A stretch of 64,000 nt of DNA from assembly GCA_026989535.1 (NCBI GenBank), contig JALSJD010000096.1, forward strand, positions 1 to 64,000, read 5' to 3'. Below, one piece after another: positions 1,815 to 7,975 of this stretch. The translations under genes and the position numbers were made by a program. The DNA comes from Cyclobacteriaceae bacterium (GTDB lineage Bacteria > Bacteroidota > Bacteroidia > Cytophagales > Cyclobacteriaceae). The first letter of the stretch is position 1; each line of letters starts with the position of its first letter. The notes beneath the pieces were generated by a model that saw only the letters and a list, made by a program, of their open reading frames with translations, made no database searches and was not told where the DNA came from.

Positions 1815-3140
1815 ATGCTCCTAAAATCTGCTACACTAGTTAACGAAGGCAAAGAAATTGAAGCTGATGTCCTCATTAAAAACGGTCGAATCGAAAAAAT
1901 AGCGTCCTCTATTTCCGCAACCAACGAAGAAGTAGTTGATGCCTCTGGCAAATACCTTTTTCCGGGAATTATTGACGACCAAGTACATTTTAGAGAGCCA
2001 GGCCTAACTCATAAAGCCAACATTTTTACCGAATCAAGAGCTGCGGTGGCAGGGGGTGTTACCTCTTTTATGGAAATGCCCAACACCGTACCAAATGCGC
2101 TTACCCAAGAATTACTAGCCGATAAATATGCCATTGGAGCAAAAGATTCCTTGGCTAATTATTCTTTTTTTATGGGAGCCTCCAACGATAACATCGAAGA
2201 GGTTCTTAAAACAAACCCAGCAGAAGTATGCGGATTAAAAATATTTATGGGGGCTTCCACGGGCAATATGTTGGTGGATGAAGAAAAAACACTGGAAGGG
2301 CTTTTTTCCAAAGTAGAGATGCTTATTGCCACACATTGCGAAGATGAAGCTACTATCAGAAAAAACACAGCAGCAGCCAAAACCCGGTTTGGTGAGGAAG
2401 TACCCATAGAGCAACACCCAGTTATTCGAAGTGCCGAAGCTTGTTATTTATCCTCTTCGATGGCCGTAGGCTTGGCCAAAAAGCATGGCACAAAACTGCA
2501 TATTTTACATATTTCCACCGCCAAAGAAATTGAGCTGTTCGACAATACACTTCCATTAGCCGAAAAGAAAATTACAGCCGAAGCCTGTATCCATCATTTG
2601 TGGTTTAATAATGCTGACTATAAAGAGAAAGGGGCTTTGATTAAATGGAATCCTGCTGTAAAAACAGCAAGTGACCAAAAGGCTATTTTGGAGGCAGTGC
2701 TTTCAGGAAAGATTGATGTAATTGCTACGGATCATGCTCCTCATACATTAGAAGAAAAACAAAACAGCTATTTTAAAGCTCCTTCAGGAGGGCCATTAAT
2801 CCAACATGGTATGGTAGCCATGCTCGATTTTTACCACCAGGGGAAAATAACTTTACCTCAAATTGCTGAAAAAATGAGCCATAACCCCGCCATCCTTTTT
2901 AACATAAAGGAGCGCGGTTATATACGAGAAGGCTTTTATGCAGATTTAGTTTTGGTTGACCTTGCTCGCCCTTGGGTCGTAAACAAAGAAAATATTTTAG
3001 CTAAATGTGGTTGGTCTCCTTTTGAAGGGCATAAATTCAACGCTAGTATTACACATACCTTTGTGAATGGGAAACTGGCTTACGCCAATGGGGTTATTAA
3101 TGAAGTAGGCAGTGGCAGCCGGTTATTATTTGCTCGTTAA
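1815..3140 (+). CDS. pyrC: Dihydroorotase (amidohydrolase family)
   Basis: DDQVHFREPGLTHKANI, ATDHAPHTLEEK, GGPLIQHG motifs. Confidence 0.9.
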   Translation: MLLKSATLVNEGKEIEADVLIKNGRIEKIASSISATNEEVVDASGKYLFPGIIDDQVHFREPGLTHKANIFTESRAAVAGGVTSFMEMPNTVPNALTQELLADKYAIGAKDSLANYSFFMGASNDNIEEVLKTNPAEVCGLKIFMGASTGNMLVDEEKTLEGLFSKVEMLIATHCEDEATIRKNTAAAKTRFGEEVPIEQHPVIRSAEACYLSSSMAVGLAKKHGTKLHILHISTAKEIELFDNTLPLAEKKITAEACIHHLWFNNADYKEKGALIKWNPAVKTASDQKAILEAVLSGKIDVIATDHAPHTLEEKQNSYFKAPSGGPLIQHGMVAMLDFYHQGKITLPQIAEKMSHNPAILFNIKERGYIREGFYADLVLVDLARPWVVNKENILAKCGWSPFEGHKFNASITHTFVNGKLAYANGVINEVGSGSRLLFAR

Positions 3141-3224
3141 AATTACTTGCTTAAGCGATTGCAATTATTAATTGAAGCAATATATTTGCACTCCAATTCG
3201 CCCAATGGCGAATAAAAAGTACAC

Positions 3225-3265
3225 GGTGGTTGTAGCTCTCCCGGTAGTTATCGGGATGGTTAGAG
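3225..3265 (+). pseudogene. tRNA-His 5'-fragment carrying an 18-bp palindrome in the D-loop
   Basis: ggtggttgtagctc[tcccggtagttatcggga]tggttagag versus the true tRNA ggtggttgtagctcagttggttagag starting at 3274. Confidence 0.75.
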
Positions 3266-3273
3266 TAATACAT

Positions 3274-3348
3274 GGTGGTTGTAGCTCAGTTGGTTAGAGC
3301 ATCGGTTTGTGGTACCGAGGGTCGCGGGTTCGAGTCCCGTCTTCCACC
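3274..3348 (+). tRNA. tRNA-His (GTG anticodon, with G-1)
   Basis: Cloverleaf: GGTGGTTG TA GCTC AGTTGGTTA GAGC A TCGGT TTGTGGT ACCGA GGGTC GCGGG TTCGAGT CCCGT CTTCCAC C; anticodon GTG at 3309-3311. Confidence 0.9.
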
Positions 3349-3362
3349 CATCTTGTTTAATT

Positions 3363-3396
3363 AACCCCTTGATATTCAATATCTTGGGGTTTTTTA
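3363..3396 (+). terminator. Intrinsic terminator after tRNA-His
   Basis: AACCCCttgATATtcaATATcttGGGGTTTTTT. Confidence 0.75.
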
Positions 3397-3539
3397 TTTT
3401 CTTTACCGTAAACATGTAGTAAACAAACATCTGTTTAACACACGTTTTACCTAGTATAATAGTATTTTTTCTATCTATACTAATAGTTTTATTTGGTATA
3501 GCCTCCACTTTAGTGGTGTTACAATTAAGTTTTATAACC

Positions 3540-3547
3540 TAGTTTTG
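3540..3547 (+). promoter_or_regulatory. Candidate Bacteroidota -7 element (TAGTTTTG) upstream of the Abi gene
   Basis: TAnnTTTG 18 nt before the ATG at 3565; -33 element weak. Confidence 0.4.
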
Positions 3548-3564
3548 TGAACAAATAAACCATA

Positions 3565-4449
3565 ATGGGTAAAACTGCCACCAATACTATCAAGCAAATA
3601 CAACACTTAAAAGATAGAGGTATGGATTTGGATTATGAAGAATCCAAAATCAAAGAATTTCTTTTAGATATTGGCTATTACCGATTAGGTTTTTACTGGA
3701 ATCCCTTTGAAAAGGATGATGAACACAATTTTATTGATGGCACAAAATTTTCTACTGTTATAAAACTATATTATATGGATGTAGATTTAAGAAACATCCT
3801 ATCAAGATACATAAACCGAATTGAAATAAACTTTAGAACTAAGTTAGTTTATTATGTTTCTAATGCTAATAAAAACTCCCCAACTTGGTTTGCAGACCCA
3901 ACTATTGTAGGCACTGATTTTACTGATAAAATTGATGAATATTATGATGATAAATTTAAACGGTATAACAAAACCATAAAAACCCACCACACTAAATATA
4001 TCAATGATAAATATGCCCCTGCTTGGAAAACACTTGAGTTTTTTACATTTGGTGTAATTTATAATATTTATAATAATGTGAAAGATGAAAATATTAAAAC
4101 AAGGATTTCAAAAGAGTTTGGAGTTTATAATTATACTAAATTCAAAAACTTAATCGAAACAATTATTTTGGTTCGAAACATTTGTGCACACGGTGATGTG
4201 TTATTCGATTTAAAAACACCTAAAGGGATTTCAATTATCCCTGAATTTAGTTTTAATAATAATGATAGAAGTTCATTAGATTCATGTATAAAGGTTGTTT
4301 ACTATTTTTTGGGGCAAATTTCAAAAAACCGCCAAAAGGATATGAAAAGAGATATTGAGGAGGTTTTTGAAGGCGTTAAAGCGAACCCTGATTTAAAAGA
4401 TATCGTTACTGGTTCTATTAATTATAATTATCATATTTTGCTAACATAG
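3565..4449 (+). CDS. Abi_2 / AbiD-AbiF family abortive-infection HEPN protein
   Basis: N-terminal IGYYRLGFYWNPF (typical of Abi_2) and C-terminal VRNICAHGDVLFD (R-x4-H HEPN ribonuclease motif). Confidence 0.88.
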   Translation: MGKTATNTIKQIQHLKDRGMDLDYEESKIKEFLLDIGYYRLGFYWNPFEKDDEHNFIDGTKFSTVIKLYYMDVDLRNILSRYINRIEINFRTKLVYYVSNANKNSPTWFADPTIVGTDFTDKIDEYYDDKFKRYNKTIKTHHTKYINDKYAPAWKTLEFFTFGVIYNIYNNVKDENIKTRISKEFGVYNYTKFKNLIETIILVRNICAHGDVLFDLKTPKGISIIPEFSFNNNDRSSLDSCIKVVYYFLGQISKNRQKDMKRDIEEVFEGVKANPDLKDIVTGSINYNYHILLT

Positions 4450-4467
4450 AAGTATTTCGTACCTTTG
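4437..4467 (+). promoter_or_regulatory. Bacteroidota primary-sigma promoter TTTG-N19-TACCTTTG overlapping the end of the Abi gene
   Basis: TTTG at 4437-4440, 19-nt spacer, TACCTTTG at 4460-4467; exact match to TTTG-N19-TAnnTTTG. Confidence 0.7.
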
Positions 4468-4471
4468 TGGC

Positions 4472-4557
4472 ATAGTGCACTGCTATTCATCTTATGCTTT
4501 AGTTTCTGCACTCAAAAATAATAAATATAAAACCTAGGCTTTGCCCTAGGTTTTTTG
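4472..4557 (+). ncRNA. Predicted ~85-nt structured small RNA downstream of the Abi_2/AbiF gene
   Basis: Consensus promoter just upstream, intrinsic terminator at the 3' end, no ORF, internal complementarities GTGCA/TGCAC and CATA/TATG in crossing order. Confidence 0.5.
4530..4556 (+). terminator. Intrinsic terminator
   Basis: AAACCTAGG ctttgc CCTAGGTTTTTT. Confidence 0.85.
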
Positions 4558-4661
4558 CTTTAATTACTTCACTTCTAACGCTTCTTAATATTTTGGAAAG
4601 CCTTAGGCAAAACTCAGGTTAAAAAATAATCTTATATTTACGCCCCTTAATCATCTACTCT

Positions 4662-5723: not shown

Positions 5724-5900
5724 ACCTATCCTGAATTATTAGATTAATGTGGAGGCGAGGCGTCAAAAACATCGCTGGCCGCCCTTGGCGGGCATATTTT
5801 GAAAAACAACTACTAAAAATGGCATAAATAATGGGTTTTTAAAGCTTGAGGTTGGTTTTGGGTTTGTGTTCAAAATGTTTATGAATAATTCAGGTTAGGT
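5724..5900. repeat. 177-bp element bounded by 17-bp inverted repeats
   Basis: ACCTATCCTGAATTATT (5724-5740) and AATAATTCAGGTTAGGT (5884-5900), 16/17 complementary. Confidence 0.6.
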
Positions 5901-6017
5901 CGAACTCGGGTTGATAATTAAATTATCGTCTCTCTCATTAGAAGCCCATGTATAATGAGGTTGGCTTTTTCCATTTATTATCAATATTTTTATAGTGCAT
6001 AAATATGATACTAAGCT

Positions 6018-6359
6018 ATGACAGATTATACGATAAGACTGCATAACATAATTTGCTATTTGCCAGATGAAAGCACAGATGAAGTGTATTTAATGTGCAA
6101 TGGCAAAAAAATTTGGCCTAAAGCCGAAAAGTATAACTCCATGAACCAAGGTGATACGGCTACACTAAAAGTAGAAACTTCACTGGTGCGCGGTGCTTCT
6201 ATTAAGGTTGAGTTATGGGAGTTTGACGACCTTTCTCCTGACGATTACTTAGGAAAATTTATTTTAGAAGCAGACAAAATCGGAGGGCCCTACACCTCTG
6301 ATATGATAAAGGAAGATAAGGTAAAAGCAAAATATGCTATAAGCTGGGAGGTACGATAG
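6018..6359 (+). CDS. Hypothetical protein, possibly C2-like beta-sandwich
   Basis: Complete 113-aa ORF; VYLMCNGKKIWP...IKVELWEFDDLSPDDYLGKF resembles C2-type 'D-x-D..DDYLG' loops. Confidence 0.6.
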   Translation: MTDYTIRLHNIICYLPDESTDEVYLMCNGKKIWPKAEKYNSMNQGDTATLKVETSLVRGASIKVELWEFDDLSPDDYLGKFILEADKIGGPYTSDMIKEDKVKAKYAISWEVR

Positions 6360-6571
6360 CTGGGTTCTCGATTAACCCTGCCTTTTGCAGCACTCTCCGT
6401 TGCTGCTTTATTGTGTGGCTAAAAAAACACTAAAAAAGCTACAAACACAAAAGAGAGCAAAGCAAATTCGTCAACTTATTTTATAGACCCCTTTAAATGT
6501 AAGGCAAAATTGCAAAGAAAACATCTACTATAAGTTTATCCCAAACTTTGGGCAAGGAGCATTGGATACTA

Positions 6572-7975
6572 CTAGTTTAACGCTCTGCCCAACGCATACA
6601 TTGTGGTTAGTTTGGCCTTTCTGTTTTGGGTTAATAGCTCAATAAACGTTAGCTGTGTTTTAATAAAACCCACCTCTCGTGTGTTTACCATAAATAAAGA
6701 GCTTTCGCCTATATTAAATAGTTGGCGCTCCCCTTCCAATAAATTGCCTGCATCCTCAACCGTTTGTGCATACAATTCAATTTGTTCTTTGGTGGTACTC
6801 CATTGGTTCCAAGCAGCGATAACCTTATACCTTAATACTTGTTGCTTATTGTTTAGCTTAAGGTTGTTCTCCTGTATTTTTAAATCTGTTAGCTTAAGCA
6901 GCCCTCTTTCTTTTCTTAAAAAAAGAGGCATCTGAAACTCCAACCCCCACGTGTAATTATTAATAGAAAAGTTTGCCATTGATTCGCCCCCTACATACTC
7001 TGTGATGGGGTTGTATTTTAAATTTAGCATTGGCAATAGCTGGTTCTTTTTTAGGCGTTTATCTATTTCTAACTGGTTAATTACATAACGCGATTGGTTT
7101 AACTCTGGGTGGGTATTAATGAGCGAATCTATTTGTACAAAAGGGGGAGGGTTCGTATTTAACCCCATCGTGTTGCTAATAGATACGGGAACGGTGCCTG
7201 CTGCCAACTCTAATGGAACAACGCCTTCTGCCCATAAATAAACGGATAATAAGACCGTGGCATTTTTAAATTCAACTTCTGACTGCTGTAAACCAAGCAT
7301 TCTGTTTTGCACTTGTATGCCTGCTTCTAATGTATCAATAGCTGGGCGATCGCCTATGGCTGCCCCTAGCTTTACGGCATCAAACCTTTCTTTGGCCAGC
7401 CGATAGCCCTCTTTATACACAAACAACGAATTATAGGCTTTAAACCATTCCCAGTAGGTGGTACCCGCCCTGTAAACCAATTCGTTAAGTATAAGTTGTT
7501 GTTCCATCTCAGACACTTGTTGAAACAATCGCGCTTTTTTAAGTTCTGCTCTTCGTTTATCTATTAATAAACCCCTACCTACAGGAAACGATATGCCCGC
7601 ATGCACCAACCCGCTTCCAGGGGTGGTATTTTCTGGATTAAGAAATACTCCTTGGGTTTGTTCATACCCTCCTTTAAGCTCAACCCCAAACCAAGTGGGT
7701 ATTTTTAGCCCTCCATTAATTAAACTGTAATATTGGTTTTCTTTAAAATACTTTTGACTTATATCTGTATAAATTTTAGGGTCAAAGGCTCCTTTGGCGT
7801 ATAATAACGTGGCTTCGCCTTCATAAATTTTTATGTCGGCTTGTTTGGTATATGGGTGTTCTTTTTTTACTATTTCAATAAATTCTTGATAGCTTAAAGT
7901 AACCGTGCTGTCGCTTTGTGCCTGCACATAAAAACAACTGTTTAATACAAACAATGTAGTAATAAGGGCTTTCAT
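6572..7975 (-). CDS. TolC family outer membrane protein
   Basis: Signal peptide, long coiled-coil OEP architecture, adjacent to HlyD and ABC genes. Confidence 0.85.
   Translation of the reverse strand: MKALITTLFVLNSCFYVQAQSDSTVTLSYQEFIEIVKKEHPYTKQADIKIYEGEATLLYAKGAFDPKIYTDISQKYFKENQYYSLINGGLKIPTWFGVELKGGYEQTQGVFLNPENTTPGSGLVHAGISFPVGRGLLIDKRRAELKKARLFQQVSEMEQQLILNELVYRAGTTYWEWFKAYNSLFVYKEGYRLAKERFDAVKLGAAIGDRPAIDTLEAGIQVQNRMLGLQQSEVEFKNATVLLSVYLWAEGVVPLELAAGTVPVSISNTMGLNTNPPPFVQIDSLINTHPELNQSRYVINQLEIDKRLKKNQLLPMLNLKYNPITEYVGGESMANFSINNYTWGLEFQMPLFLRKERGLLKLTDLKIQENNLKLNNKQQVLRYKVIAAWNQWSTTKEQIELYAQTVEDAGNLLEGERQLFNIGESSLFMVNTREVGFIKTQLTFIELLTQNRKAKLTTMYALGRALN

Follow-up and report, generated by a model that had tools for sequence, protein, structure and literature searches.

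The window, meaning the whole 64,000-nucleotide stretch of DNA that was analysed, carries near its start a conserved Abi_2 gene with its HEPN motif, followed by a structured RNA with a promoter and a terminator, an arrangement that is linked to a single clade of Abi_2 proteins. The features, all on the plus strand, are given below.

3540..3547, plus strand: possible promoter of abi itself, -7 box TAGTTTTG (from sequence; a weak candidate)
3565..4449, plus strand: abiF-type (Abi_2) putative HEPN RNase gene, 294 aa (Pfam, PADLOC, PDB 8vz6 by sequence and predicted fold)
4174..4191, plus strand: HEPN R-x4-H motif RNICAH, residues 204-209 (R204, H209)
4437..4440, plus strand: -33 element TTTG of the RNA promoter, within the end of the abi ORF, with a 19-nt spacer to the -7 element
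4460..4467, plus strand: -7 element TACCTTTG of the RNA promoter (sequence and conservation in homologs)
4473..4557, plus strand: partner RNA downstream of abi (model R1), with a predicted transcript length of approximately 85 nt (R1 match, conservation, fold)
4474..4479, plus strand: 5' side of the outer stem, AGUGCA, pairing with 4507-4512, near-invariant in 79 sequences
4482..4485, plus strand: 5' side of the inner stem, GCUA, pairing with 4500-4503 (compensatory changes across the family; fold)
4486..4499, plus strand: apical loop with conserved CAU...GC (A4 alignment)
4500..4503, plus strand: 3' side of the inner stem, UAGU (alignment and fold)
4507..4512, plus strand: 3' side of the outer stem, UGCACU (alignment and fold)
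4513..4528, plus strand: conserved A-rich single-stranded linker of the UAAAA type (A4 alignment, invariant A columns)
4529..4557, plus strand: Rho-independent terminator, probably common to the RNA and the abi mRNA (fold, 4529-4554; homologs)

Judged by its domain, its conserved R-x4-H motif and its predicted fold, the 294-aa protein is a member of the AbiF/Abi_2 family. The ORF matches Pfam PF07751 (Abi_2) with 151.2 bits (E = 5.2e-44; curated cut-off 25.6), PADLOC calls the product AbiD (5e-47), and the sole relative in the PDB is PbAbiF (8vz6; sequence E = 6.5e-24, profile E = 3.8e-36). The predicted model (pLDDT 94.7) matches 8vz6 with a TM score of 0.82 (E = 4e-12), with 24% identity in the fold alignment, as for distant kin. 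The ORF and its RNICAH motif, already pointed out in a sequence-only reading of this DNA, were both borne out when read in the sequence. Residues R204, N205 and H209 are without variation across 47 aligned homologs, R-N-x3-H is found in all intact homologs, and R204/H209 are equivalent to the catalytic R202/H207 of AbiFCd and R210/H215 of PbAbiF (PMC12373285). RNase activity, toxicity and phage resistance would be expected of the window AbiF by analogy with these homologs. It is the product of the one Abi_2 gene of the window's own genome; among the homologs, a -7 box at most 60 nt from the abi ATG is present in 30 of 78.

A six-protein profile scan of 85,462 species genomes yielded 80 loci, all of Bacteroidota, and whole-genome searches contributed six further ones, including that of the window. 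An RNA of the same plan lies 17-117 nt (median, 42) after the abi stop codon in 84 of 84 testable loci across Bacteroidota, namely those on contigs that reach far enough (L095 and L120 end too early). From 5' to 3' the plan consists of the promoter, AGUGC, two bases, the 5' side of a covarying inner stem, a CAU..GC loop, the 3' side of the inner stem, GCACU, the A-rich linker and the terminator. Model R1 was built from 79 distinct sequences, so that its matches in all R1 loci are partly by construction; that in the window spans 4468-4520 (55.4 bits, E = 1e-12, the window sequence being part of the model). A GTGC...GCAC-AAA motif 3' of the stop codon is present in 77 of 79 loci, as opposed to 6 of 897 control windows and none of 52 other Abi_2 loci.

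Across the alignment of 79 sequences, 85.7% of the cells of the 12-pair structure are paired and 104 cells show two-sided changes, as opposed to 43.5 in shuffles. The covariation score is 0.312 (0.148 when shuffled, at most 0.145 when slid); RNAalifold independently returned the same outer and inner helices. The three central pairs of the outer stem GUGCA/UGCAC are constant in the 79 sequences, a conservation that stems partly from selection, since the first extraction pattern included both outer-stem arms; the inner stem, the promoter and the terminator played no part in selecting the RNAs. The covariance check downstream of homologous abi genes, which had been proposed along with the original observation, has brought out a conserved RNA with a strongly covarying inner helix. 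Its two loop-proximal pairs are U-U, unpaired, in approximately half of the family, the window included. The predicted fold of 4473-4557 has an energy of −20.7 kcal/mol and a z-score of −3.5, to which the terminator contributes much, the hairpin alone giving z = −1.25. As for the complementarities noted earlier, GCATA (4470-4474), TATGC (4493-4497), GTGCA (4475-4479) and TGCAC (4507-4511) are all where they were said to be and the outer pairing GTGCA/TGCAC stands, but the crossing one, and with it the suggested pseudoknot, had to be given up: CATA/TATGC pairs in 31.5% of cells, which is the shuffle level, its covariation (0.077) is that of the control, and the expected transcript start is at GCATA or 3' of it.

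The TTTG element, the 19-nt spacer and the -7 box occupy the positions first read for them. A -7 box of the form TAnnTT(T/C)G is found within 45 nt before the stem in 78 of 79 loci, with a chance expectation of 4-6% from shuffles and control windows. A -33 TTG at a spacing of 17-24 nt is present in 43 of 79 homologs (at 19-20 nt in 37 of these), and in approximately half of the loci, that of the window among them, the promoter overlaps the end of the abi ORF. These data support transcription of the RNA from a promoter of its own, as predicted from sequence. The terminator, correctly read as extending to 4556, has a homologous counterpart 3' of the RNA in 75 of 79 loci, compared with 6.4% of control windows; in the loci of the A4 alignment it follows the RNA stem after approximately 14 nt, and its loop is often (A)CUUGC(U). 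A terminator-like hairpin between the abi stop codon and the RNA occurs in just 1 of 82 loci, so that the abi mRNA probably uses the terminator of the RNA. The read-through of abi mRNA expected from this last figure is also what would be seen if the hairpin were a structured 3' UTR or terminator of that mRNA, acting in cis on its stability or termination, with no separate RNA being made. We regard this as improbable, however, because the distance between the Bacteroidota promoter and the stem is held constant at 4-13 nt in 76 of the 78 box-bearing loci, and because the conservation of the loop and of the internal bases exceeds what a terminator would call for (A4 alignment). The comparative data instead agree with the unit originally envisaged, of a protein and a structured RNA endowed with its own promoter.

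The RNA is tied to one lineage of proteins. When placed in a tree together with 52 other Abi_2 proteins, the R1-bearing ones are all set apart from the rest by one branch (SH-aLRT 100), and the RNA subtypes track the protein subclades, with 15 changes as compared with 42 when shuffled. Strong R1 matches are confined to the neighbourhood of this abi clade in approximately 340 class-level genome draws, and a search of 57 further loci besides that of the window, almost all of which are Abi_2 loci, found no R1. Each R1 locus has one RNA unit, with the exception of L109 (Pedobacter frigoris), where an extra partial copy (2805-2837, 29.8 bits) lies upstream of abi. Two weak R1 matches were set aside, one of 29.6 bits in L149, antisense within an ORF, and one of 26.6 bits in L150, an unlinked R1-like remnant. 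Genes within 1.2 kb upstream are common to only 1.0% of locus pairs, and those within 1.2 kb downstream to 1.1%, while abi is common to 100%; with flanks so rarely shared (approximately 1% of pairs), abi and the RNA travel as a unit. In two genomes of the same genus (G136 and G014) pyrC and tRNA-His are kept and different DNA follows the tRNA, and in G093 similarity resumes at 4626, in a different neighbourhood, so that abi and the RNA share one segment that is specific to the window's genome. Variable DNA is found in the genus at the 3' end of the tRNA-His (window 3275-3348; L164), and in G014 the tRNA-end repeat ATCTTCCACCCA is found further downstream, as after integration. Adjacency to a tRNA was discarded as a general trait, a tRNA or tmRNA being within approximately 0.8 kb in just about 6 of 60 loci.

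The link between AbiF and non-coding RNAs, already brought up in the sequence-only reading, is established (PMC12373285; Rfam RF03085), but the downstream RNA cannot be equated with the known abiF RNA, from which it differs in its fold and its side of the gene, and it has no Rfam match. At the window locus no family of Rfam 15 matched it at E values up to 10 beyond chance matches, such as OrzO-P, whose 20 bits fall short of the cut-off of 60. RF03085 specifically gave no match around this locus at E up to 10, and 15 R1-clade loci were likewise without a match at E up to 1. A literature search that did not take in Zilberzwige-Tal et al., Cell 2025, a work that may already cover this clade, turned up no account of an AbiF RNA lying downstream. 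As cited in PMC12373285, that study links AbiF with ncRNA, including PbAbiF with its ncRNA, and another paper shows that two or more models of AbiF RNAs are available from it.

Abi_2 genes of other clades are accompanied by an upstream RNA of a different kind, mostly unlisted, with the pattern AACAGTAC-n-CGCCACGCTACCC..AGAACAGCGTCCCAGGGCG-n-GTCTTTT. This R2-type RNA aligns with RF03085 members and has the same topology, and its 11 pairs have a covariation score of 0.498 versus 0.184. The RF03085 model detects only part of the upstream RNAs and model R2 nearly all of them, including loci outside its building set (L003, L016-L018, L027, L030, L042, L048 and others). The class occurs upstream of Abi_2 genes at L004-L064 (e.g. 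L004:2205-2256, minus strand; L049:1410-1463, plus strand), as two tandem copies in L007, L024, L025 and L041. The PbAbiF ortholog L060 (E = 1.7e-108) has RF03085 upstream (53.9 bits), which makes PbAbiF a protein of the upstream type. An R2-type RNA of 47.1 bits is also present in the window's own genome, at a contig end (G000:C44:10-59, minus strand, identical with L033:10-59); the assembly holds no abi gene for it, and the gene may sit in a gap. At L031 (1496-1544, minus strand) an R2-type RNA behind a promoter is followed by a RhuM-family gene (PF13310) rather than by abi, and is possibly an orphan antitoxin.

The two kinds of RNA are mutually exclusive by protein clade. No RF03085/R2 RNA was found upstream of the R1-clade abi genes, the single good R2 match, in L137, belonging to a second abi gene; a geometry-only search returned R2-like hairpins in 27 of 82 R1-clade upstream regions and in 100 of 373 controls, and model R2 was used as evidence instead. 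L137, from a Prevotellaceae genome, contains Abi_2 genes at 3001-3982 and 5811-6790, 2 kb apart, one with a downstream R1 and the other with an upstream R2. We put forward, at what we judge to be even odds, that the R1-clade AbiF swapped the ancestral upstream abiF RNA for an unrelated and independently evolved downstream RNA antitoxin with its own promoter.

Regarding function, AbiFCd is toxic and is neutralised by RCd22 through direct binding (PMC12373285), PbAbiF binds one RNA per monomer (PMC12737573), and the tested AbiF-RNA pairs all act as toxin and antitoxin (PMC12373285, PMC12737573). From the homology of the protein and the analogy of the RNA with AbiFCd-RCd22 and PbAbiF, the most likely role of the window RNA is that of antitoxin to AbiF. 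With good confidence, although on comparative grounds, we consider the locus to be a two-gene, type III-like toxin-antitoxin or abortive-infection module, in which the RNA would bind and silence AbiF; toxicity, direct binding, neutralisation and phage defence are all carried over from the homologs. AbiF would be a homodimeric HEPN RNase, and the RNA would be made in excess from the promoter inside the 3' end of abi, binding AbiF directly and blocking its active site. With no terminator separating the two, the RNA sequence would probably also be present once at the 3' end of each abi mRNA. The 3' location would leave the antitoxin dose to the RNA's own promoter, with attenuation of a common transcript playing no part. 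Upon a block of transcription, for example by a phage, or loss of the locus, the RNA would decay first, and the freed AbiF would cleave RNA so that growth stops. In three loci (L096, L124 and L128; abi at approximately 3001-3880) abi has in-frame stops and the RNA is intact (58, 61 and 45 bits, respectively). This pattern fits loss of the toxin first, as expected if abi is toxic, sequencing error being another possible source of the stops.

Two other modes of action have been weighed. The vicinity of the two genes and the small size of an RNA with a loop would also suit a type I-like system, with the RNA silencing the abi mRNA through base pairing and no binding to the protein. This is very hard to credit, for the duplex energy with the locus's own abi leader (−16.4 kcal/mol) is that with the leaders of other loci (−16.6 kcal/mol), and the RNA and abi are on the same strand, without antisense overlap. 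In the other, the RNA would be a cofactor or sensor required for AbiF activity, for instance in the recognition of a phage product, rather than its inhibitor. The RNA has a fold and a position unlike those of the known AbiF antitoxins, so that another binding mode or function might apply, and a phage protein has been reported to bind the leader RNA of the related AbiD1 (PMC12373285). We nevertheless attach only a small probability to a cofactor role by taking into account that the tested pairs behave as toxin and antitoxin, and that the RNA is kept in loci with a broken abi. The antitoxin function thus stays the preferred one.

AbiF has been reported to be the RNA-regulated ancestor of Cas13, which is thought to descend from this HEPN family. 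A clade with another RNA, on the opposite side of the gene, offers a natural comparison for how HEPN RNases gain or change their RNA partners; the change of partner, if true, would mean that the RNA was replaced within a family thought to be ancestral to Cas13. The downstream position also decouples the supply of RNA from transcription of the toxin. Moreover, an RNA family absent from Rfam is added, with a usable covariance model, and natural cognate and non-cognate pairs become available for specificity tests, even in a single genome (L137).

By comparison with known systems, the locus shares with type III toxin-antitoxin systems (ToxIN, AbiQ, CptIN, TenpIN) the logic, by analogy, of a protein RNase and an RNA antitoxin. 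In those systems the antitoxin is an upstream tandem-repeat array, with a terminator in between, and the toxins have another fold, whereas here a single-copy downstream RNA accompanies a putative HEPN toxin; the one crossing helix that was examined for a ToxI-like pseudoknot pairs at shuffle level. The RF03085/R2 RNAs are likewise small hairpin RNAs beside an Abi_2 gene, with an outer and an inner stem. They lie upstream and have an outer stem of 6-7 bp, an inner stem of 3-4 bp, a large loop of approximately 11 nt and a 3' bulge of approximately 6 nt, while R1, downstream, has a near-constant 5-bp outer stem, 2-nt bulges on both sides, an inner stem that covaries and has up to 7 bp, a short CAU..GC loop (approximately 8 nt) and an A-rich tail. 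With PbAbiF (8vz6, a dimer with ncRNA) the window protein has in common the fold, the HEPN dimer family and a single RNA partner, but, unlike in the window's clade, the PbAbiF ortholog L060 carries its RF03085 RNA upstream. The AbiFCd-RCd22 pair of Clostridioides difficile phi027 (PMC12373285) also comprises an Abi_2 HEPN protein with R-x4-H and a small structured RNA (approximately 100 nt) that adjoins abi and has its own promoter and terminator. However, RCd22, located upstream and with two RF03085 motifs, is transcribed together with abiF through read-through, whereas the window RNA is one unit, placed downstream under its own promoter and with another fold.
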